Source of the DNA: Pseudoduganella lutea
Lineage (GTDB): Bacteria; Pseudomonadota; Gammaproteobacteria; Burkholderiales; Burkholderiaceae_D
Assembly (NCBI RefSeq): GCF_004209755.1
Contig: NZ_CP035913.1
Span: 1,550,001-1,614,000, forward strand
DNA: 64,000 nucleotides
Direction of reading: 5' to 3'
Within the stretch, counting starts at the first letter, position 1. Every line of letters starts with the position of its first letter. Shown here in pieces: positions 5,188 to 19,619 of this stretch. Both the position numbers and the translations under genes were made by a program. The notes under the pieces were generated by a model. It was not told where the DNA came from. It did no database searches and saw only the letters and a list, made by a program, of their open reading frames with translations.

Positions 5188-5733
5188 CTAGCGCTTTTCG
5201 ATTGCGGTCTGCATCGCCTGCAACCGGGCACGCCGGGCCTGCCACTCCGCCGCCTGGGCCTTGTCCAGCTCGATCGTAAATTCCGTCCACGAGCCGGTGA
5301 AGTTGCACACGTGGTTCCACACGCGCCGCACGTGCAGGGTCGCGCCCTGCAGGTCCGAATCGAGCAGGCTGACTTCCAGGGAGCCGTCCTTGCGGAACAC
5401 GTGCCGCGCATGCAGGTCCGGTGTGAGCGCATCTTCCCATTCGCGCTGCTGCCGGGGCGATGCGGGCACGAGCTTCATCTGGAAATAGGCATCGATGCGC
5501 GCGACGTGACGGCGGATGGCTTCGCAAAGCTCGTGCACCCGCTCGTCATCGGTATCCCTGAGCTCCTTCGAGCCGGCGGCGTAACGCAAGGCCAGCACGG
5601 CGTCGTACCACTCGGCTGCCGTGCCGGCCTTCTTCACCATCGCATGAAACCGGTTCGGCGACACCTGGTGCAGCGCCTCCACCAGTTTCGTCAGGTCGGC
5701 GAGGATCGCCGCGGTGTCGGCCTGCGGGTTCAT
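5188..5733 (-). CDS. Unrecognised protein, last gene of the J-domain operon
   Basis: A 181-residue soluble protein starting MNPQADTAAILADLTKLVEA. I do not recognise the family. The N-terminal half looks helical. The middle (about 110-160) contains alternating strand-like segments such as SLEVSLLDSDLQGATLHV, and the C-terminus is a charged helix (DKAQAAEWQARRARLQ). There is no signal peptide or membrane segment. It starts 8 bases after the stop of the preceding leftward gene, so it is almost certainly co-transcribed with it and with the three genes further upstream, headed by a J-domain protein. Confidence 0.8.
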   Translation of the reverse strand: MNPQADTAAILADLTKLVEALHQVSPNRFHAMVKKAGTAAEWYDAVLALRYAAGSKELRDTDDERVHELCEAIRRHVARIDAYFQMKLVPASPRQQREWEDALTPDLHARHVFRKDGSLEVSLLDSDLQGATLHVRRVWNHVCNFTGSWTEFTIELDKAQAAEWQARRARLQAMQTAIEKR

Positions 5734-5741
5734 CGACGCCC

Positions 5742-6614
5742 TCAGTCGTAGTCGGGGTCCAGCTCCGAACCGGCGTAATTCTCCAGCTCGGCAAACAGCG
5801 TCTTCATCGCCGTGCGGCCGGGAATGTGCTGCAGCACCGTGCAGCCCTTGCGGTACACGTCGATGCGGTTCAGCAGCACCGGGTGGTGCTGGGCTGGCAC
5901 GGCGGCGACCAGCGCGGCCCAGCCGGCTTCGAAGTCGGGCTTGTTCGCCCGCACCGCCTTCACGAAGCGCTCGAAGTCCTTCTGGCCGGTGCGAGCCACG
6001 ATGCGCCCGCCTCCTTCGACGGCAAAGATGATCGCCAGCGCGATCACGCCTTCCGCGTTCAGGTCGGTGTCCTTGATGGCGCCGCCGCTGTTGTGCCGCC
6101 GCAGCCAGCTCGCGAAGCGGACGACGGCCTGCGCTTCCTGGCGCTGCCTGAACTGTTCCTGGTAGCGTGCCGGGCCATCCCAGTTCGCGTTCGGGTCGGT
6201 CAGGCAGAGGTCGAAGAAGATGTCGCGCAGGCGCCGCTGGGCATACACCGGGTCCTGGTCGTATTCGCCCACCAGCGTATCCTCGGGCATCGCGGCCAAA
6301 TCCTTCAGCTGGCGAAAGCCCGCCTGGAATGCCGCCTCGGCGCCGTTCTCGACGAGGAAGTCCAGCGCGGCCGCGTCGCTGTCCACCGACAGCAACTGCT
6401 CTAGACCGAGCGACACGCCGCCCACGGTGAGGTTGACGGCCTTCTGGATGCCTTCGGACGTGCGGTGGTTCGTGAACTTCTCGGCGACCATCGCCGTGAT
6501 GCCGGCCAGTTCATCGGCCAGCATCACGGCCGCGTCCGGGCGGTCGTCGCCCGGCAGCAGCTTGATCGCGCGCGTCAGTCTCGGCAGGTTTTCGCGTACG
6601 AGTGCCGGCAGCAT
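5742..6614 (-). CDS. Unrecognised 290-residue protein of the J-domain operon
   Basis: The protein starts MLPALVRENLPRLTRAIKLL and is mainly helical, with a conspicuous GGGRIVARTGQKDFERF segment around residues 205-220. It carries no signal peptide, no transmembrane helix and no catalytic motif that I know. Its ATG overlaps the stop of the upstream gene (TGATG at 6616-6612), which implies translational coupling. The downstream 181-residue gene follows after 8 bases. Function unknown; the only contextual clue is the J-domain protein at the head of the operon. Confidence 0.82.
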   Translation of the reverse strand: MLPALVRENLPRLTRAIKLLPGDDRPDAAVMLADELAGITAMVAEKFTNHRTSEGIQKAVNLTVGGVSLGLEQLLSVDSDAAALDFLVENGAEAAFQAGFRQLKDLAAMPEDTLVGEYDQDPVYAQRRLRDIFFDLCLTDPNANWDGPARYQEQFRQRQEAQAVVRFASWLRRHNSGGAIKDTDLNAEGVIALAIIFAVEGGGRIVARTGQKDFERFVKAVRANKPDFEAGWAALVAAVPAQHHPVLLNRIDVYRKGCTVLQHIPGRTAMKTLFAELENYAGSELDPDYD

Positions 6615-10146: not shown

Positions 10147-10230
10147 GGGACGTACCCCTGTTTTGAAGCAAAATTGGGGACGTACCCCTGTTTCACGGCA
10201 ATTTTTCCCGGAAACAGGGGTACGTCCCCA
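10147..10230. repeat. Cluster of three GGGGACGTACCCC palindromes
   Basis: Cores lie at 10147-10159 and 10177-10189 (GGGGACGTACCCC) and, inverted, at 10218-10230 (GGGGTACGTCCCC). They follow glnS in the 250-base gap before the sensor kinase. The outer copies can pair with each other into a long hairpin ending in a short T run, so they may also end the glnS transcript. Confidence 0.88.
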
Positions 10231-10384
10231 GTTTTCTTGTAGGGCAAGGGTTATGCATGACGGCGACGGACGAGGGCTGCGTCCGCCGCAACGGTTCATG
10301 TCCGGTAGTCGCTTTGTTCTTGACGCAGCTCACTTCGACTGCCTATATTTTGACCACGAACCCAGCCCTCTCACCGCCCCGCCC

Positions 10385-12196
10385 ATGAAACAACCTCTGT
10401 CAGGAAAACTGCACGAAGCCAAACCCTCCTGGTGGAGCGGCGTGCTGCTGTCGACGCTGGTCGGTGCCGGATTTTACGCATGGATGGCCAACTCGCTGGA
10501 AAGCGAGGCCCTGGACCGGTTCCGCAATCAGGCCCGCAGCATCCAGTACAACATCGCCGGCGGCATCAAGGCATGCACCGACGTGCTGCGTGGTGCTGCG
10601 AGTCATTTCCAGGCCAGCGAGGAAATGTCGCCCCAGAGTTTCCACCGCTATGTGCGGGGCCTGGACATTCCACACAATTTCCCGTCGATCGCCACGATCA
10701 ATTTCGCGCAGTATGTGCCGGACGAGCGCCGCGCCACGTTCGAATACCAGATGCGCAGTGCGACGGTACGCGAGCTGGGATACCCCGAATTTCGTATCTC
10801 GCCTTCCGGCCAGCGGCCCGATTACACCGTCATCACCCTGCTTGAACCGATGTACGGCGCCAAAGGCAAGTTCGGGTACGACCTGGCGTCCCGTCCCGCC
10901 GTTGCCCGTGCCCTGGAGCTGGCGCGCGACACGGGCGCGATCTCCACCTCCGGCCTGCCGGTGCAATTGCCCGAAGCGCCCACGCAGTTCGGCATGCCGT
11001 TGCGCCTGCCCGTGTACCGGGCGGACATGCCGGTCGACACCGTGGCCGATCGCCGCGCCGCTTATATGGGCTCGGTTGGCATCGGCTTTTCCGTACCGCG
11101 CCTGGTGGAGGCGGCCATGGTCGATACGCCGGTGCGCGAAGTGCGCGTGCGGCTGTACAGTACCGTGGCTGGCACGCCGCCGAATGGCACGCAGCCCAAT
11201 GGCCACCTGTTGTTCGACAGTACCGAATCCGCCGCCGGCCAGGCGCCGCCGGACGATCACGTTCAGTTGAGCCTGCCTGTGAACTACAACGGCAGGCTGT
11301 GGCAAGTCTATTTCGATGCACCCCGAGGGGCGCTGTTCTCGAGCTTCGACGCCTACCTGCCGTGGCTGGCCGCGCTGGTCGGCTTTGTCAGCACGCTGCT
11401 GATGTACGCGCTGTTCCATGCCCAGGTATCGTCGCGGCGGCGTGCGCTGCAGATGGCGCGCGACATGACGCGCGAACTGCGCGACAGCCAGGCAAAGCTG
11501 CAACTGTCGCACCAGCGGCTGCGCCGCCTGGCCGCGCATGCCGAGCAGATCAAGGAAGAAGAACGCAAGCGCATCGCCCGCGAAATCCATGACGACCTGG
11601 GCCAGAACCTGCTGGCGCTGCGCATCGAGGCCGATATCCTGGCCAGCCGCACCGCGCTGCGCCACCCGCGCCTGCACTCCCGCGCGACCGCCACGCTGAA
11701 GCAGATCGACGAAACAATCCGCAGCGTGCGCAACATCATCAACGACCTGCGGCCGAACGTGCTCGATCTCGGCCTGTCCGCCGCGGTGGAATGGCAGATC
11801 ACCCAGTTCCGCAAGCGCTCCGGGATCGAATGCGACGTGCTCGACCCCGATGGCACGCCGGATGTGGACGACCGCTGCGCCGTGGCACTGTTCCGCGTAC
11901 TGCAGGAATCGCTCAGCAACATCCAGCAGCATGCGCGGGCCACGCATGTGCGCGTGGAATTGCGCCAGCTCGGCGGCACCTTGCGCATGGTCATTGCCGA
12001 CAATGGCATTGGCCTGCATGACGGCAGCCGCAACAAGAATGGCTCGTTTGGCCTCGTGGGCATCGAGGAACGCATGAGCTTGCTGGGCGGCGATTGCTCC
12101 ATCGTCAGCCGCCCTCATGGCGGCACGACGGTCACCGTGACGGTGCCGGTGGCGTGGCGTGCCGCGCAGCCGGCAGTCGGTGTATTCGCCAATTAA
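10385..12196 (+). CDS. CHASE-domain sensor histidine kinase (NarL-partner type)
   Basis: A 603-residue membrane kinase. Helix 1 is near residues 16-38, followed by an extracytoplasmic CHASE-type domain (about 60-280), then helix 2 near 323-346. A HisKA_3 dimerisation domain follows, with the phospho-acceptor His402 in RIAREIHDDLGQNLLALR. The ATPase domain has QESLSNIQQHA (N box), DNGIG and GLVGIEERM. Kinases of this type normally pair with LuxR/NarL-family response regulators, but none is adjacent, so it is an orphan here. The ATG at 10385 places helix 1 correctly. The pair of repeat genes at 12334-14158 lies immediately downstream, and a regulatory link is possible but unproven. Confidence 0.93.
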   Translation: MKQPLSGKLHEAKPSWWSGVLLSTLVGAGFYAWMANSLESEALDRFRNQARSIQYNIAGGIKACTDVLRGAASHFQASEEMSPQSFHRYVRGLDIPHNFPSIATINFAQYVPDERRATFEYQMRSATVRELGYPEFRISPSGQRPDYTVITLLEPMYGAKGKFGYDLASRPAVARALELARDTGAISTSGLPVQLPEAPTQFGMPLRLPVYRADMPVDTVADRRAAYMGSVGIGFSVPRLVEAAMVDTPVREVRVRLYSTVAGTPPNGTQPNGHLLFDSTESAAGQAPPDDHVQLSLPVNYNGRLWQVYFDAPRGALFSSFDAYLPWLAALVGFVSTLLMYALFHAQVSSRRRALQMARDMTRELRDSQAKLQLSHQRLRRLAAHAEQIKEEERKRIAREIHDDLGQNLLALRIEADILASRTALRHPRLHSRATATLKQIDETIRSVRNIINDLRPNVLDLGLSAAVEWQITQFRKRSGIECDVLDPDGTPDVDDRCAVALFRVLQESLSNIQQHARATHVRVELRQLGGTLRMVIADNGIGLHDGSRNKNGSFGLVGIEERMSLLGGDCSIVSRPHGGTTVTVTVPVAWRAAQPAVGVFAN

Positions 12197-12333
12197 AGTA
12201 ATCATTCATATCAGCAAATAGTTGCATAGAAGTCTTCTATAGTTTGAGCCAGATCAATAGCTCCTTTGAACCAAGGGCAACAATAAGCCCTGGTTTAAAT
12301 GCCTTGACCCATCTCAACAATAGGAGACTTGAA

Positions 12334-13194
12334 ATGACCGACTACATCGCAATCGAAGAGCTGGACCTGGAACCCATCAAGGTCAAGCTGATGCACAGGG
12401 AATCAGGCGAAGGGTGGAGCCTGGCCCGCGCCAATGCGGTGGAAAAGGAATACCGGCGCTTCTTGATCCTCATGAAGAAATATCCTGAAGAGCAGGCTGC
12501 CCCGTTGATGGACGTGGACACGTTCTGGCATTACCACATCCTCGATACGTTGAAGTACGCGGTCGATTGCCAGGCGGTGTTCGGCTATTTCCTCCACCAC
12601 TTCCCTTATATCGGCCTGCGCGGCGAGGAAGACGAGGAAGTCCACCAGAGCATGGGCGAACGCATGAAGGAACTGTACGAGGAAACGTTCGGCGAGGATT
12701 ACATCCGCGCAGGCGCCACCGCCTGGTCGGGTCGCGCGCCCGCATCGCAGGAAGCGCAAACCGCCTGGTCGGGCCGTGCACCGGCATCCCTTGAAGCGCA
12801 GACCGCCTGGTCGGGTCGCGCACCGGCATCCCTCGAAGCGCAGACCGCCTGGTCGGGCGCGGCAACGGCACTGGCTGCAAAGACCGCCTGGTCCGGTGCG
12901 GCAACGGCACCGTCGGCAAAGACCGCCTGGTCGGGTGCGGCAACGGCACCGTCTGCAAAGATTGCCTGGTCGGGTGCGGCAACGGCACTGGCTGCAAAAA
13001 CGGCCTGGTCCGGTGCGGCAACGGCACCGGCTGCAAAGACCGCCTGGTCGGGTGCGGCAACGGCACTGGCCGGCCAAACTGCCTGGTCGGGTCGCGCACC
13101 GGACGCGCAGGCAGCGACAATCGATAGTGCGCCAACTCCGGCGGTCATCCCGATCTATACCGTGCGGCCGCGACTGCCCCAAGCAGCGGTCTGA
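12334..13194 (+). CDS. GRDP-like domain protein with ten AWSG tandem repeats
   Basis: A 286-residue protein. Residues 1-128 form a conserved domain resembling the GRDP-like (DUF1399) family: LDLEPIKVKLMHRESGEGWS, then DVDTFWHYHILDT and VFGYFLHHFPYIGLRGE, rich in His that could bind metal. From residue 130 come ten copies of AWSG in units of 14 (AWSGRAPASLEAQT) and 13 residues (AWSGAATALAAKT). The tail contains YTVRPRL. There is no signal peptide. The ATG at 12334 follows TAGGAGA by 6 bases; an earlier in-frame start is rejected. A paralogue with AYSGR repeats follows at 13373. A precursor of multiple short peptides, a structural repeat protein or a modified-peptide substrate are all possible. 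No function is established. Confidence 0.88.
   Translation: MTDYIAIEELDLEPIKVKLMHRESGEGWSLARANAVEKEYRRFLILMKKYPEEQAAPLMDVDTFWHYHILDTLKYAVDCQAVFGYFLHHFPYIGLRGEEDEEVHQSMGERMKELYEETFGEDYIRAGATAWSGRAPASQEAQTAWSGRAPASLEAQTAWSGRAPASLEAQTAWSGAATALAAKTAWSGAATAPSAKTAWSGAATAPSAKIAWSGAATALAAKTAWSGAATAPAAKTAWSGAATALAGQTAWSGRAPDAQAATIDSAPTPAVIPIYTVRPRLPQAAV
12721..13110 (+). repeat. Coding tandem repeat array encoding AWSG units
   Basis: Ten in-frame repeats of 42 bases (first three) or 39 bases (next six), each starting GCCTGGTC. The units are very similar at DNA level and also vary in synonymous and adjacent positions, as in an array that expands and contracts by recombination. Within the protein the W-S-G trio is invariant, while the following residues switch between RAPASLEAQ and AATALAAK types. 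Confidence 0.93.
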
Positions 13195-13267
13195 CGCACT
13201 GTCGCGGAACCGCCACAGCGGTTCCGCCTCCCTCGCCCCTCACATGCGCACACGATTGAATCGTTGC

Positions 13268-13295
13268 TTGCAATCCATAAAGAACGTCCTATACT
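13268..13295 (+). promoter_or_regulatory. Sigma-70-like promoter of the AYSGR-repeat gene
   Basis: TTGCAA (13268-13273), a 16-base spacer and TATACT (13290-13295) resemble -35 and -10 boxes. The region is AT-rich compared with its surroundings and lies about 78 bases before the ATG at 13373. If correct, the second repeat gene has its own promoter besides any read-through from the first, and has a leader of about 70 bases containing an ATTGAT/ATCAAT inverted repeat (13303-13324). Confidence 0.5.
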
Positions 13296-13372
13296 AGGGT
13301 CTATTGATGTTTCCTTGAATCAATATCAATTCAAATACGGCATCGCCGTCGCCCCCCTTGGAGAGGATGTAC

Positions 13373-14158
13373 ATGGTTTCTACCGAACATTTCAAACAAA
13401 TTGCCGAACTCGACCTTGAACCCATCAAGGTCAAGCTGATGCACGAGGAATCGGGCGAAGGCTGGTCGCTGGAAAAGGCTGACGCCGTCGAGTTCGAATA
13501 CCGCCGTTTCCTGTACCTGATGAAGATGTTCCCGAACGAGCAGACCGCGCCGTTGATGGACGTGGACACGTTCTGGCATTACCACATCCTCGATACGATG
13601 AAATACGCGGTCGACTGTGACAAGGTGTTCGGTTACTTCCTGCACCACTTCCCGTACATCGGATTGCGCGGTGAAGATGACGAGGAAGCGCACCGCCGCG
13701 TGGGCGACCGGATGAAGGAGCTGTACGAGGAAACCTTCGGTGATGCCTACCTGCGCAATGCCGAGCCGGCCTACTCCGGCCGTATCAGCGCGAACTCGGC
13801 ATATTCCGGCCGTATCGGCACCGATGTCGCCTATTCGGGCCGCATCGGCACCGACACGGCATACTCGGGGCGCATCAGCGCGCAAACCGCTTATTCCGGC
13901 CGCATCGGCACCGATGTGGCCTATTCCGGACGCATCAGCACGGACACCGCCTATTCCGGCCGTGTTGCCTATTCCGGCCGTGCCACCGCACCGACCGTCG
14001 CCGCGCAAACGGCTTATTCGGGTCGTATCAGCGACGCGAACGTCAGCCCGAAAACGGCTTACTCCGGCCGGATCGGTACCGAAACGGCCTATTCCGGCCG
14101 GATCGACGCAGCACCGGCGCAGACCGCGTTCTACACGGAACGCCCGCGCCTGGCCTGA
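13373..14158 (+). CDS. GRDP-like domain protein with eleven AYSGR tandem repeats
   Basis: A 261-residue paralogue of the 12334 gene. The N-terminal 125 residues are nearly identical in plan: LDLEPIKVKLMHEESGEGWS, DVDTFWHYHILDTMKYAVDC, YFLHHFPYIGLRGEDDEE. From residue 133 there are eleven AYSGR copies, mostly in 10-residue units such as AYSGRIGTDV and AYSGRISTDT. The end, FYTERPRLA, matches the paralogue's YTVRPRL. Each unit ends in or contains Arg, so a trypsin-like protease would release many near-identical decapeptides. GGAGAGG at 13360-13366 supports the ATG at 13373. A strong terminator follows. The domain's function in bacteria is unknown to me. Confidence 0.88.
   Translation: MVSTEHFKQIAELDLEPIKVKLMHEESGEGWSLEKADAVEFEYRRFLYLMKMFPNEQTAPLMDVDTFWHYHILDTMKYAVDCDKVFGYFLHHFPYIGLRGEDDEEAHRRVGDRMKELYEETFGDAYLRNAEPAYSGRISANSAYSGRIGTDVAYSGRIGTDTAYSGRISAQTAYSGRIGTDVAYSGRISTDTAYSGRVAYSGRATAPTVAAQTAYSGRISDANVSPKTAYSGRIGTETAYSGRIDAAPAQTAFYTERPRLA
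13769..14101 (+). repeat. Coding tandem repeat array encoding AYSGR units
   Basis: Eleven in-frame copies of AYSGR. The period is mainly 30 bases, with one 18-base unit (AYSGRV) and two longer units of 15 residues. The repeated pentapeptide uses mixed synonymous codons (tac/tat, tcc/tcg, ggc/cgt variants), showing that the amino acids rather than the DNA are being conserved. Confidence 0.93.
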
Positions 14159-14218: not shown

Positions 14219-14461
14219 TCAGTGCGTCATCAGGTCGCGCAGCTCGCGGATCGAATAATCGCTGATCTCGTGCATGCGGATCAGGATGGTGGCACCGATC
14301 GGCAGCGTGTTGTGACGGATCTTGCTGATGACCGGTGGCGCTACCTCGAGGGCGCGCGACAGCGCCGCGTCGTTCTTCAGGTCCAGCTTGGCGATGATGG
14401 CGTCGAGGACGCGGTTCGGGTTGTATGACGGCGATGCGGTCAGGTCTTTCAGGAATGACAT
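14219..14461 (-). CDS. Small helix-turn-helix (XRE-like) protein
   Basis: An 80-residue protein starting MSFLKDLTASPSYNPNRVLD. The segment NDAALSRALEVAPPVISKIR (about residues 30-49) reads as an XRE/Cro-type helix-turn-helix, followed by NTLPIGATILIRMHEISDYS as the third helix and core. It may be a small DNA-binding regulator. The upstream leader (14462-14600) is AT-rich. It converges on the AYSGR-repeat gene across a shared terminator. The frame is open to 14512, but the shorter start at 14461 matches the domain. Its target is unknown. Confidence 0.75.
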   Translation of the reverse strand: MSFLKDLTASPSYNPNRVLDAIIAKLDLKNDAALSRALEVAPPVISKIRHNTLPIGATILIRMHEISDYSIRELRDLMTH

Positions 14462-14658
14462 ATTCAAACTTTCTCGGACAGTGCTCTCTTGAAGCAATAG
14501 CAGGGTTACCAATATTTCGCCGGTTCGTTACCGGTCTTTTGGTGACAAACGATCGCGCACGGCGAATTAGTTTGTATGCGGACAATATGGTACACCGATT
14601 TGCTTAATTTTTGGCAACTTGCGTGAGAATCCGAGAGATTTCGACAGCATATTCTGTG

Positions 14659-15912: not shown

Positions 15913-16938
15913 ATGACGTTTCAGATTACTGTTCAGCCCAGCGGCCACCAGTTTGCATGCGATGAAGACGAAACCGTGCTGGCGGCGGCCATGCGGGCGG
16001 GTGTCGGTCTGCCGTACGGCTGCAAGAACGGCGCGTGCAGCTCCTGCAAGGGCAAGGTGGTTGCCGGCGAGATCACGCACAAGCCGCATCAGCGCCGCGC
16101 GCTGTCCGAGGAAGAGGAAGTCCAGGGCATCTCGCTGTTCTGTTGCGCGATTCCCCATTCCGACCTCGTGATCTCCGCCCGCGAAGTGGCCGGCAGCGGC
16201 GACTTCCCCGTCAAGAAGATGCCGTCGCGCGTGACCACGCTGGAAAAGGTGGCGCCGGATGTGATCGTGATGACCCTGCAACTGCCCGCCAATGAAGTGC
16301 TGGAATACCGTGCCGGCCAGTACATCGAATTCCTGCTGCGCGACGGCAAGCGCCGCAGCTACAGCATGGCCAGCGCGCCGGGCGCCGGTCCCATCTCGCT
16401 GCATATCCGGCACATGCCGGGCGGGCTGTTTACCGACCAGGTGTTCAGCACCCTGAAGGAGCGCGACATCCTGCGCTTCGAAGGCCCGCTGGGCACGTTC
16501 TTCGTGCGCGAGGAATCGGACAAGCCGATGGTGCTGCTGGCGTCCGGCACCGGCTTTGCACCGATCAAGGCGATCGTCGAGCAGATGCAGGCTTCCCGCT
16601 CGCAGCGCAAGATGGTGCTGTACTGGGGTGGCCGCCGGCCGCGCGACCTGTACATGCATGCACTGTGCGAGCAATGGGCACGCGAGCTGCCGAACTTCAG
16701 CTACGTTCCCGTGGTGTCCGATGCGCTGGACGAAGACGGCTGGACGGGCCGCACCGGTTACGTGCACCAGGCCGCCGTGGCCGACCTGCCGGACTTGCGC
16801 GACTGGCAGGTGTATGCGTGCGGCGCGCCGATCGTCGTCGAATCGGCAAAGCGCGATTTCGTCGCCACCTGCGGCTTGCCGGAAGACGAGTTCTACGCGG
16901 ACGCCTTCACCACCGAAGCCGACCTGGCCCAACCTTAA
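15913..16938 (+). CDS. 2Fe-2S ferredoxin-NAD(P)H reductase (CDP-6-deoxyhexulose reductase-like)
   Basis: A 341-residue electron-transfer flavoprotein. The N-terminal plant-type ferredoxin domain has the cysteines C37, C42, C45 (CKNGACSSCKG) and C77/C78. An FAD-binding ferredoxin-reductase domain follows, with RSYSMASAP for flavin. The NAD-binding domain has LLASGTGFAPIKAIVEQM. The order ferredoxin-FAD-NAD matches oxygenase reductases and the AscD/RfbI family often annotated as CDP-6-deoxy-delta-3,4-glucoseen reductase. No partner oxygenase is adjacent, so the electron acceptor is unknown. The ATG at 15913 starts the ferredoxin domain directly. Confidence 0.93.
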   Translation: MTFQITVQPSGHQFACDEDETVLAAAMRAGVGLPYGCKNGACSSCKGKVVAGEITHKPHQRRALSEEEEVQGISLFCCAIPHSDLVISAREVAGSGDFPVKKMPSRVTTLEKVAPDVIVMTLQLPANEVLEYRAGQYIEFLLRDGKRRSYSMASAPGAGPISLHIRHMPGGLFTDQVFSTLKERDILRFEGPLGTFFVREESDKPMVLLASGTGFAPIKAIVEQMQASRSQRKMVLYWGGRRPRDLYMHALCEQWARELPNFSYVPVVSDALDEDGWTGRTGYVHQAAVADLPDLRDWQVYACGAPIVVESAKRDFVATCGLPEDEFYADAFTTEADLAQP

Positions 16939-17012
16939 TCACCATCGCGATCCCGGTTCCCGCCGGCCCTCCCGGCCGGACCGCGGGGCCGCGTAACACC
17001 ACTGATCGCTTC

Positions 17013-18260
17013 ATGTCCTCATCCAACGGCTTCGCCGTCCTGCGTCACCGTAACTTCGCGTTTTACCTGTCCGCCCGCATCCTTGGCACGCTTGCCGTGC
17101 AGATGCAGAACGTTGCCGTGGGCTGGCAGGTCTATTCGATGACCCACAACCTGTTTTACCTCGGCATGATCGGGCTGGCCCAGTTCGCGCCCTTCCTGCT
17201 GCTGATCCTGCCGGCCGGCCATGTGGCCGACCGCTACAACCGCCGCAACATCGTGACGGCCTGCCTGGCCACGCAATGGCTCGTGGGCGTGCTGCTGCTG
17301 GCGTTTGCCCACAGCGGCATGGCGATCGTGTGGCCGGTGTTCGCCGTGCTCGTGCTGTTCGGCAGCGCACGCGCCTTCATGGGGCCGGCCACGCAGGCAA
17401 TGCTGGTGAACCTCGTACCCCAGCAAGACCTCAGCAAGGCGGTAGCGCTATCCTCCTCGAGCTTCCACGTGGCGGTGATTCTCGGCCCCACGCTGGGCGG
17501 CCTGCTGTACATCCACGGCCCGATTGCCGTGTATGCGATCGCCGCCGCGCTGCTGCTCGTGGCGACCGTGCTGATGGCGATCACCAAGGCCCCGCCGCAG
17601 GCCAGCAACCGCGAGCCGGCCACATGGCACAGCGTGCTGGAAGGCTTGCGCTTCGTGATGTCGCGCCCGATCGTGCTGGGCGCGATCTCGCTGGACCTGT
17701 TTGCCGTGCTGTTCGGCGGCGCCACGGCATTGCTGCCGGCGCTGGCCCACGACGTGCTGCACGTGGGCCCGACGGGCCTGGGCCTGCTGCGCACGGCGCC
17801 CGGGGCCGGCGCGGCATTGTGTTCCATCGCGCTGGCCTTCTTCCCGATCACGCGCCGGGTCGGCGCCTGGATGTTCGGCGGCGTGGCCGTGTTCGGCGTG
17901 GGCACGGTCGTGCTCGGCACCACCACCACGTTCACCATCGCCCTCGCCTGCCTGCTGCTGATGGGCGCGGGCGACATGATCAGCGTGTATGTGCGCCACC
18001 TGCTGGTGCAGTTTGAAACGCCGGACGCGATCCGCGGCCGGGTCAGCGCCGTGAATTCCGTGTTCATCGGCGCATCGAACGAGCTGGGCGAATTCGAATC
18101 CGGCGTCACGGCTGGCTGGATGGGCCTGTCGCGCGCGATCGTGTTCGGCGGCGCGGCCACCCTGGTCGTCACCGGGGCCTGGATCAAGCTGTTCCCTGTG
18201 CTCGCGAAGATGGACCGGTTCCCGCACCATGAGAAAGAGTTGGCGCAGCAGGCGAAGTAG
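17013..18260 (+). CDS. MFS transporter, EntS-like
   Basis: A 415-residue transporter with about 12 membrane segments, starting MSSSNGFAVLRHRNFAFYLS. The loop PAGHVADRYNRRNIVTACL is an MFS signature. The start and the FETPDAIRGRVSAVNSVFIG region near the C-terminus are typical of the enterobactin-exporter (EntS/MFS_3) branch. It follows the reductase gene after 74 bases on the same strand and could share its transcript. Transport substrate unknown; no siderophore biosynthesis genes lie nearby. Confidence 0.9.
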   Translation: MSSSNGFAVLRHRNFAFYLSARILGTLAVQMQNVAVGWQVYSMTHNLFYLGMIGLAQFAPFLLLILPAGHVADRYNRRNIVTACLATQWLVGVLLLAFAHSGMAIVWPVFAVLVLFGSARAFMGPATQAMLVNLVPQQDLSKAVALSSSSFHVAVILGPTLGGLLYIHGPIAVYAIAAALLLVATVLMAITKAPPQASNREPATWHSVLEGLRFVMSRPIVLGAISLDLFAVLFGGATALLPALAHDVLHVGPTGLGLLRTAPGAGAALCSIALAFFPITRRVGAWMFGGVAVFGVGTVVLGTTTTFTIALACLLLMGAGDMISVYVRHLLVQFETPDAIRGRVSAVNSVFIGASNELGEFESGVTAGWMGLSRAIVFGGAATLVVTGAWIKLFPVLAKMDRFPHHEKELAQQAK

Positions 18261-18350
18261 GGCCTTGAAAACACGGCAATGTGCTGCACTTAACAACAGA
18301 AGGGCCCCGTAAGACGTAACATCAAGCCATACACAACGAGGAGAACAACA

Positions 18351-18722
18351 ATGCAAGTTCAAGTGAATACCGACAAGGCCATTACCCATGATGCCAACCT
18401 GGACAACCACGTCGAAAGTGTCGTTCGCTCGGCGCTGGAACGCTTCGGCGAAGCCATTACCCGCGTCGAGGTTCACCTCGGTGACAATAACGGTCACAAG
18501 ACCGGTCCGAACGACAAGCGCTGCATGATGGAAGCCCGCGTGGCCGGCATTCCACCGATCGCCGTGACCGACCAGGCCGGCGACCTGCACCAGGCGATCA
18601 CCGGCGCCTCCGGCAAGCTGGTGCGCGCACTGGATACGGCCATCGGCAAGCGCAGCGACGTCAAGCACAACACGCCTGTCGCCGACCTCGTGCAACCGGA
18701 CGCCGTCGAGACCGACGACTGA
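18351..18722 (+). CDS. HPF/RaiA-family ribosome-associated protein
   Basis: A 123-residue protein resembling the short hibernation-promoting factor fold: MQVQVNTDKAITHDANLDNH, then RFGEAITRVEVHLGDNNGHK, then AITGASGKLVRALDTAIGK. Proteins of this family bind the 30S subunit and reduce translation under stress. It lacks the C-terminal dimerisation domain of long HPF. GAGGAGA precedes the ATG. It stands alone, convergent with the metal-receptor gene, and could be a stress-induced paralogue rather than the rpoN-linked hpf. Confidence 0.87.
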   Translation: MQVQVNTDKAITHDANLDNHVESVVRSALERFGEAITRVEVHLGDNNGHKTGPNDKRCMMEARVAGIPPIAVTDQAGDLHQAITGASGKLVRALDTAIGKRSDVKHNTPVADLVQPDAVETDD

Positions 18723-18738
18723 CCGGCACGGTCGACGA

Positions 18739-19521
18739 TTATCCCGCCGCGGCCAGGCCGCGCAGGTACGCCAGCCCGGCCAGTGCCCGGCTGCCGTACC
18801 ACGACATCATTTCCCCATCCACGAGCTGCACCGGCTTGCCGACTTGCTTTTCCAGCGCTTCGGCATGCGCTTCCGTGAACCGGTACGGCTCCGTGGACAG
18901 CAGCACCTGGTCGATACCCGCCACCAGCGTATCGTTCCAGTCGAAACGGGGATACCGGTCGGGCCCGAGTTCAGGCACGCTCCAGCCGATTTCCGCCAGC
19001 ATGGCCGCGATATACGTGCCGCGCGACACGGTCATCCAGGGGTCCTGCCAGATGCAGTACAGCACGCGCTGCGGCGGCCCTTTCGGCATGGCGCGCAGCA
19101 CGGCCAGTTCGGCGGCAAACGCATCGCACCAGCGGCGCGCCGCGTCATCCGCGCAGAATATGCCGCCCAGCAGGCGGGCAAGCTCCAGGTTGTCTTCCGG
19201 CCGCTGCGGGTGCGTGACGATTACGTGCGGCACGAACGTGGCCAGCAGGTCGGCCACCGGCTTCGTGTTCTCATCGATGTTGACCACGACGTGCGTGGGC
19301 GCCAGCGCGCGCACCCGGTCGACGTTGACATCCTTCGTGCCGCCCACCTTCGGGATATCGCGCAGCACGTCTGAGGGATGGATGCAGAAACCCGTCCGGC
19401 CCACCAGTTGGCCAGCCAGCCCCAGCGTGCACAGCAGTTCAGTGATCGAAGGCACCAGCGACACGATGCGGGCATTCGGATCGGGCAAGTGCGCGTGGCC
19501 AAGGGCATCGATGAAGTTCAT
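18739..19521 (-). CDS. BtuF-like helical-backbone metal/cobalamin receptor protein
   Basis: A 260-residue protein of the periplasmic-binding-like BtuF/FhuD fold: RIVSLVPSITELLCTLGLAG at about 18-37, VGGTKDVNVDRVRALAPTHV, then WQDPWMTVSRGTYIAAML. Family members bind vitamin B12 or metal chelates for ABC import. No signal peptide is visible from the ATG at 19521 (MNFIDALGHAHLPDP), and no permease or ATPase is adjacent, so it may be a cytosolic member with a different role. The longer frame to 19584 does not add a convincing signal peptide either. It is divergent from the diguanylate cyclase at 19620. Confidence 0.83.
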   Translation of the reverse strand: MNFIDALGHAHLPDPNARIVSLVPSITELLCTLGLAGQLVGRTGFCIHPSDVLRDIPKVGGTKDVNVDRVRALAPTHVVVNIDENTKPVADLLATFVPHVIVTHPQRPEDNLELARLLGGIFCADDAARRWCDAFAAELAVLRAMPKGPPQRVLYCIWQDPWMTVSRGTYIAAMLAEIGWSVPELGPDRYPRFDWNDTLVAGIDQVLLSTEPYRFTEAHAEALEKQVGKPVQLVDGEMMSWYGSRALAGLAYLRGLAAAG

Positions 19522-19619
19522 GTTGCTAAAGAAAGTAAAAGTAGTGGATTGAAACAAGTTCAGCCGCGTTCGACCGACTTTCATGCGCTATCATGGCATG
19601 ACTTCCTGGAAACCCCGCC

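Follow-up and report, generated by a model that had tools for sequence, protein, structure and literature searches.

Two adjacent repeat genes of Pseudoduganella lutea as possible precursor-partner fusions of a RiPP-like peptide system

Two paralogous genes with tandem aromatic-serine arrays

We analyzed a stretch of 64,000 nucleotides of the genome of the soil bacterium Pseudoduganella lutea (positions 1,550,001 to 1,614,000 of contig NZ_CP035913.1; hereafter the window), and in particular two adjacent genes in it, gene 1 and gene 2, each of which encodes a GRDP-like domain followed by a tandem array of short units centered on an aromatic residue and a serine (Table 1). A preliminary description of the window had reported these two open reading frames (ORFs), their common N-terminal domain, and ten copies of AWSG in one and eleven of AYSGR in the other, all of which our alignments and counts confirmed. 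The N-terminal domains comprise ~127 residues and are 76-77% identical, i.e. the genes are adjacent paralogues; an alternative in-frame ATG at 13367 is a possible start of gene 2. Successive AWSG motifs in gene 1 are spaced by 14, 14, 14, 13, 13, 13, 13, 13 and 13 residues, and successive AYSGR motifs in gene 2 by 10, 10, 10, 10, 10, 10, 6, 15, 15 and 10 residues. The short RPRL-type C-terminus of both proteins is an addition to the preliminary description.

Table 1. Features of the repeat-gene locus in window coordinates.
Feature	Position	Strand	Basis
Sensor histidine kinase: CHASE (residues 154-340), HisKA_3, HATPase_c	10163..12196	+	Pfam
Gene 1, 286 amino acids: GRDP-like domain, 10 AWSG units, C-terminal IYTVRPRLPQAAV	12334..13194	+	translation; PF07173, E 1.7e-4
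Gene 1 GRDP-like N-domain	12334..12714	+	alignments; AlphaFold2 model
Gene 1 array: ten AWSG units of 13-14 residues, first to last motif	12721..13092	+	motif counts
Gene 1 C-terminal RPRL segment, putative follower	13153..13191	+	similar ends in family tails and distant relatives
Gene 2, 261 amino acids: GRDP-like domain, 11 AYSGR units, AFYTERPRLA	13373..14158	+	translation; PF07173; precomputed PF27765
Gene 2 GRDP-like N-domain	13373..13768	+	76% identity to gene 1 domain
Gene 2 array: eleven AYSGR units, 10 codon spellings	13769..14101	+	motif and codon count

The number of aromatic/His-Ser/Cys dyads ([YWFH][SC]) in each tail, 10 in gene 1 and 11 in gene 2, was never reached when each tail was shuffled 20000 times, the shuffled maxima being 6 and 7. 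Because the eleven AYSGR copies are written in 10 different codon spellings, the motif has been kept by selection at the protein level rather than by recent DNA duplication, and the gene 2 array, at least, is old and preserved as protein. The ten AWSG copies of gene 1 have only three spellings, so that array is younger or more homogenized.

The Pfam profile PF07173 (GRDP-like), which we take to be the same as DUF1399 and to have plant members with glycine-rich tails, matches gene 1 with 22.7 bits, exactly at its cut-off of 22.7, and gene 2 with 22.4 bits, just below it, and in both cases only profile positions 98-143 are matched. The window proteins resemble PF07173 proteins in that their W-H-x-H region matches the end of the profile and in that they have a low-complexity C-terminal tail, but where those have a glycine-rich tail they carry discrete [aromatic][Ser/Cys] units. 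In a protein search that gave 3644 matches, PF27765 was the precomputed assignment of every one of the 120 matches listed, the window's own proteins included. In gene 1 the signature of the domain reads D62..F64-W65-H66-x-H68-I-L-D-T72..Y75..D78-C79..H88-H89-x-P91. Of the columns in an alignment of 14 family members, 37 are invariant; in a wider alignment of 15 sequences, drawn also from other orders and from a cyanobacterial plasmid, 18 are, and these include D..W-H-x-H-I-x-D-T..Y and, further on, F-G and H-x-P. The conserved His, Asp and Cys residues suggest a metal-site-like signature. The AlphaFold2 model of the domain is all-helical, with a mean predicted local distance difference test score (pLDDT) of 83.

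The dyad and the CHASE sensor across the family

A search of 145 genomes of the GTDB-type family gave a match at E <= 0.001 in 45 of them, and in 38 of these (hereafter the carriers) the match was below 1e-30. The remaining seven comprise five membrane forms of the domain, a truncated gene in G025 and a relative with a single WCG motif in G009, and the source genome (G000) has, besides its two genes, one further match at E 0.8 only. In a scan with one genome per species, 191 stretches encode a relative, and the 78 loci that we kept come from Pseudoduganella, Massilia, Duganella, Rugamonas, Janthinobacterium and a few metagenome-assembled genomes (MAGs). Two repeat genes (L145) come from a contig assigned, probably by mis-binning, to a Streptosporangiaceae MAG, and broken or degenerate copies of the domain were seen at L051, L057 and L040, those at L051 and L040 adjoining intact copies.

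Tails were counted over 123 distinct genes, 34 from fetched 20-kb loci and the window and 89 from the species loci. Three or more [YWFH][SC] dyads are present in 120 of them; the three tails below this number belong to a degenerate gene (L057), a short tail with two dyads (L130) and a probably broken gene (L142). Most of the aromatic and His residues in the tails lie in dyads (1151 of 1540), and nearly every tail Cys is preceded by an aromatic residue or His (239 of 245). The dyad is preceded by Ala in 1084 of the 1151 cases and followed by Gly in 737. Homologues that have the domain but no repeats had been named beforehand as a refutation of the precursor idea, and such domains occur only outside the family, several of them with a peptide encoded as its own gene (see below). 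The aromatic-Ser-Gly trio, earlier described as invariant, is so in the window's two proteins but not across the 123 genes, where the unit reduces to the dyad of an aromatic residue or His with Ser or Cys.

Dyads with Ser only were found in 93 tails, including those of the window, with Cys only in 22 and with both in 8, and Massilia and Duganella, too, have some Cys tails. In the most divergent members (L053-L056 and L060) every tail uses Cys, and Cys is therefore probably ancestral and the Ser of the window derived, judging from these divergent members rather than from a tree. Units without any Lys or Arg are common (305 of 1027 in 120 tails) and three whole tails lack both residues. Release at flanking Lys or Arg, as had been suggested, is thus not supported as a general rule, even though Arg is present in every AYSGR unit of gene 2. 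A C-terminal ..RP.. pattern like FYTERPRLA ends 90 of the 123 tails, and comparable ends occur in distant fused relatives (L198, L221, L222 and L224).

Directly upstream of gene 1 lies a CHASE sensor histidine kinase, a neighbor that the preliminary description had not mentioned. Such a kinase adjoins the repeat gene in 26 of the 27 fetched 20-kb loci and in 77 of the 78 species loci, the exception among the latter being cut 680 bases upstream; the two sets of loci overlap. Most of these loci share a common synteny, i.e. glutaminyl-tRNA synthetase, kinase, repeat gene, XRE protein and short-chain dehydrogenase/reductase, and since most inherit this one arrangement they are not independent. In the window the XRE position is held by a small HigA-like or XRE-like protein (a weak match; 14219-14512, minus strand) that is convergent with gene 2, and its position is kept in most relatives. 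Different surroundings were found at L053, L054, L056 and L060, which represent three genera and where a PAS-bearing CHASE kinase is placed divergently, and on two Cupriavidus megaplasmids and one of Variovorax, where an AYCAR or AWCSL repeat gene directly follows the gene of a CHASE-GGDEF-EAL protein. A close orthologue of the window's kinase (E < 1e-150) is present in 34 of the 145 genomes, all of them among the 38 carriers, and in G025 one deletion appears to remove the 5' parts of both the kinase and the repeat gene. An argument against strict pairing comes from the three related CHASE-PAS kinases of L069-L071, which have no adjoining repeat gene, and the repeat gene of L055 has no CHASE neighbor at its locus.

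Separate peptides and single fused tails in distant relatives

The domain occurs in Pseudomonadota and also on plasmids of cyanobacteria and on contigs of viruses. A gammaproteobacterial clade that is Piscirickettsia-like (L249-L257) has a tail-less form of it, and one of the clade's domain ORFs is identical over the shared 78 residues to one on a Piscirickettsia salmonis plasmid. In all nine loci (seven groups after removal of near-duplicates, two locus pairs being near-duplicate) a Cys-containing ORF of 41-76 residues ends at or just before the start of the domain gene, with the provisos that the domain gene of L256 is frameshifted and that the peptide of L253 needs a TTG start. These small ORFs have a common leader followed by a core of the C-x3-C-x3/4-C type. 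Profiles built without a held-out peptide and its near relatives recovered that peptide from 562 ORFs at E values of 4.5e-13 to 1.6e-4, the next unrelated ORF scoring 0.12 or worse, and a comparable small Cys ORF was found upstream of only 3 of 78 other ORFs. A TonB receptor is encoded near the peptide in eight of the nine loci (by Pfam in seven, two of these being contig-end fragments, and by similarity in L253); several loci have a TonB protein, and in three an ABC transporter lies alongside.

The clade loci resemble a metallophore locus without a local MNIO. Methanobactin-type metallophore RiPPs have an MNIO, MbnB, and a TonB-dependent receptor, MbnT. Like them, the clade combines a small peptide of leader and Cys core with a small partner protein, a TonB receptor and, in three loci, an ABC transporter, but it has no MNIO at its loci and the partner is a GRDP-like protein. 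The window genes are less similar still in that they have Ser instead of Cys, and no TonB receptor is found among the 15 ORFs scanned around them.

Separate peptides were also found in plasmid clusters. On a Halomonas plasmid and two Pseudomonas savastanoi plasmids a 42-45 residue ORF ending in GGGHCQGGG[S/G]W precedes a tail-less domain gene, and the product of the gene that comes next looks membrane-embedded (a MatE match below the cut-off in Halomonas, no Pfam match in P. savastanoi). At the Halomonas locus (L212) the peptide has 42 residues and lies at 5725-5853, and the domain gene at 5911-6387. A Stanieria plasmid also has a tail-less domain gene; behind it come an ORF of 43 residues that contains AFCFL and GFCFL, and a methyltransferase gene. 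As the smallest of the plasmid clusters hold only a peptide, the domain and a membrane-type protein, the domain is their sole candidate for a maturation or recognition protein.

At three further loci a domain with a single fused Cys tail is accompanied by a methyltransferase, a TauD-like dioxygenase and a large ABC-type ATPase. The ATPase has a UvrA domain in G196 (L197), where a Qnr-like pentapeptide protein is also encoded, and on an Azospirillum ramasamyi plasmid (L206), which adds a second methyltransferase and a phytanoyl-CoA dioxygenase, and in G716 (L200) it has the ABC domain only, the UvrA domain being unmatched. UvrA-like proteins can serve in self-protection, and the three loci are candidate antibiotic-type clusters. 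Other fused tails read KRCPNCGRR..RP[SK][FL] (L198, L221, L222 and L224), HACH..SCACR.PGACK (L194 and L196) and DCWHDCEDRCWHACK (L223).

At least two Cys residues lie in the last 40 residues of 42 of the 58 broader GRDP-like ORFs, compared with 73 of 303 other ORFs of the same loci, or 17 of 88 when only other ORFs of at least 250 residues are counted, and 7 of the 16 exceptions are the domain genes that have a separate peptide. In Pseudomonadota one repeatedly finds GRDP-like proteins that seem to have membrane segments together with tails of the CGGCGGD type (L061-L068 and L162-L193). Those with Gly/Cys tails (L061-L068 and many of L162-L193) have the signature WHEFIL or WHxHL ... HH.P and a Cys tail as the repeat family does, but differ in their membrane segments (judged by eye), in the type of tail and in having no such repeat units. 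IMG/VR contigs of up to 533 kb (L241-L248) also encode GRDP-like proteins, 7 of 8 with long tails rich in Cys, Gly, Ser and His.

A proposed peptide system and its alternatives

Taken together, one constant domain pairs with Cys peptides, either separate or fused, some of which lie beside tailoring, immunity-like or transport genes, and in the family it is followed by variable repeats with a fixed dyad. Because this is the pattern of a system of ribosomally synthesized and post-translationally modified peptides (RiPPs), we give a probability of about one half to the reading that the window genes are precursor-partner fusions of a RiPP-like peptide system. The precursor idea of the preliminary description thus gains from the separate small Cys peptides and the tailoring and transport genes of the relatives, but to call the domain, the better conserved part of the protein, a "leader" names just one of the roles that it could have. 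In the mechanism that we propose, the constant component would be the ~127-residue helical domain with its metal-site-like His/Asp/Cys signature, and its partner a peptide bearing Cys (here Ser), made from a separate small gene in some bacteria and fused here as 10-11 tandem units. Acting in cis, the domain may bind or modify the [aromatic/His]-[Ser/Cys] dyad in every unit, the RPRL end would be a follower signal, and the neighboring CHASE sensor kinase may read the product or else the stimulus that calls for it. Since the dyad takes either Cys or Ser, it can be argued that any chemistry would take place at the aromatic residue or the backbone, or would be a ring formation that accepts either.

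More tentatively, and in our view rather doubtfully, the GRDP-like domain could be a new peptide-modifying enzyme family that defines an undescribed RiPP class. Its substrates would be a separate Cys peptide (metallophore-like, with a TonB receptor), a single fused Cys tail (in clusters of antibiotic type whose self-protection is UvrA-like) or a fused multi-copy aromatic-Ser/Cys array tied to CHASE signaling. We know of no other system in which a partner and a repeated substrate are fused in one gene in this way. The plant BURP-domain cyclopeptides (burpitides) come from proteins in which a domain with conserved His residues is joined to tandem short cores that contain aromatic residues. The window genes likewise fuse a conserved-His domain to tandem aromatic-containing cores and might work in a similar manner, i.e. 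by processing in cis. Unlike burpitide precursors, however, the window proteins have no BURP match in a Pfam scan at E <= 1, belong to another kingdom, and have a dyad in which Tyr, Phe, Trp and His interchange across the family.

Several results weigh against the precursor-partner reading. Among the 15 window ORFs between 4.2 and 22.2 kb, Pfam recognized no RiPP enzyme, protease or TonB receptor; at the other Oxalobacteraceae loci neighbors were clustered, not annotated, and the genome-wide searches covered MNIO and YcaO, not radical SAM enzymes. Neither Foldseek, VIA-align nor sequence profiles gave a useful match of the domain in the PDB, so the fold gives catalysis no support, and in the full-length model the tail is disordered (pLDDT <50 for residues 129-261 of gene 2). 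Any chemistry cannot need a thiol, as most family tails bear Ser dyads only. Tail-less relatives at L211, L225/L262 and L235 have no convincing partner peptide at their loci. Over 97 loci, similar tails tend weakly to go with similar CHASE domains when the kinase domain is controlled for (0.14, with none of 300 permutations as high), and this covariation vanishes on further correction for GRDP-domain divergence (-0.008, with 179 of 300 permutations as high).

A further point against it is that MNIO and YcaO are commoner in carriers than in other genomes (33 of 38 vs 52 of 107, and 37 of 38 vs 80 of 107, respectively) and that MNIO is present elsewhere in the genome in eight of the nine clade genomes, so that an unlinked enzyme could act. 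The system would then still make RiPP-like precursors, with the GRDP-like domain as a mere structured leader or binding partner, a possibility that we consider unlikely but worth weighing. In the source genome an MNIO (PF05114; G000:C1:1511990-1512772) lies ~50 kb upstream of the repeat genes, and 21 of the 38 carriers have one 47-93 kb away on the contig of the repeat genes; the distance is 17 kb in G062 and 8 kb in G025, whose gene is truncated. Of the co-localized enzymes for which the preliminary description had proposed to look, searches of the carrier genomes found no MNIO and no peptide-specific YcaO beside the window genes; other tailoring enzymes do occur in clusters of relatives, as with the methyltransferase and TauD-like protein of three loci. 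The single YcaO of G000 is ~0.4 Mb away in a 747-residue frame, and the YcaO nearest to repeat genes on a carrier contig is at 17 kb (G003). Against an unlinked enzyme, no MNIO match was found in four intact carriers (G045, G058, G115 and G126), nor in G019, whose gene is degenerate. In the clade the MNIO genes lie 198 kb or more off or on a different contig, G1099 having none, and only 1 of the 11 genomes with separate peptides or ATPase clusters has a YcaO. Furthermore, the co-occurrence is confounded by phylogeny, and in Halomonas and Pseudomonas the domain is a separate protein and so cannot be a fused leader.

The absence of a recognized release gene near the window genes and the disorder of the modeled tail would also be explained if the tail were the working part of a stable protein, i.e. 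a metal-binding or sticker-type disordered array on a stress or metal protein under CHASE control, and Cys tails are general in the membrane forms of the domain. This seems to us about as improbable as the action of an unlinked enzyme, because the prevalence of Ser-only dyads speaks against thiol metal binding, many units have no basic residue, and a released product is the better fit to separate peptides that share a conserved leader and are encoded next to TonB receptors. Release followed by sensing of the units by the CHASE domain of the neighboring protein, in a peptide-signal loop, is the least probable of the explanations considered. It draws on the association of CHASE with two outputs, histidine kinase and GGDEF-EAL, and on the single deletion in G025 that appears to truncate both partners. 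However, the proteins have no signal peptide, the covariation of tail and CHASE is lost on correction for domain divergence, and each partner is known without the other.

If the precursor-partner reading is right, a domain family named for a glycine-rich tail would become a marker of hidden peptide natural products, with 3644 homologues and 191 stretches to draw on, and each gene would itself supply the motif to be sought in mass spectra. The Cys-tailed GRDP-like proteins would likewise gain a testable function.

Two further features of the window were noted. An inverted repeat, AACCAAGGGC..GCCCTGGTT, lies between the kinase and gene 1 (12269-12295), with no T run after it as judged by eye. 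In other units 3-5 kb downstream of gene 2 (16665-19584), an MFS_3 transporter, which we take to be of the EntS-type family, is encoded together with a Peripla_BP_2 protein on the opposite strand.

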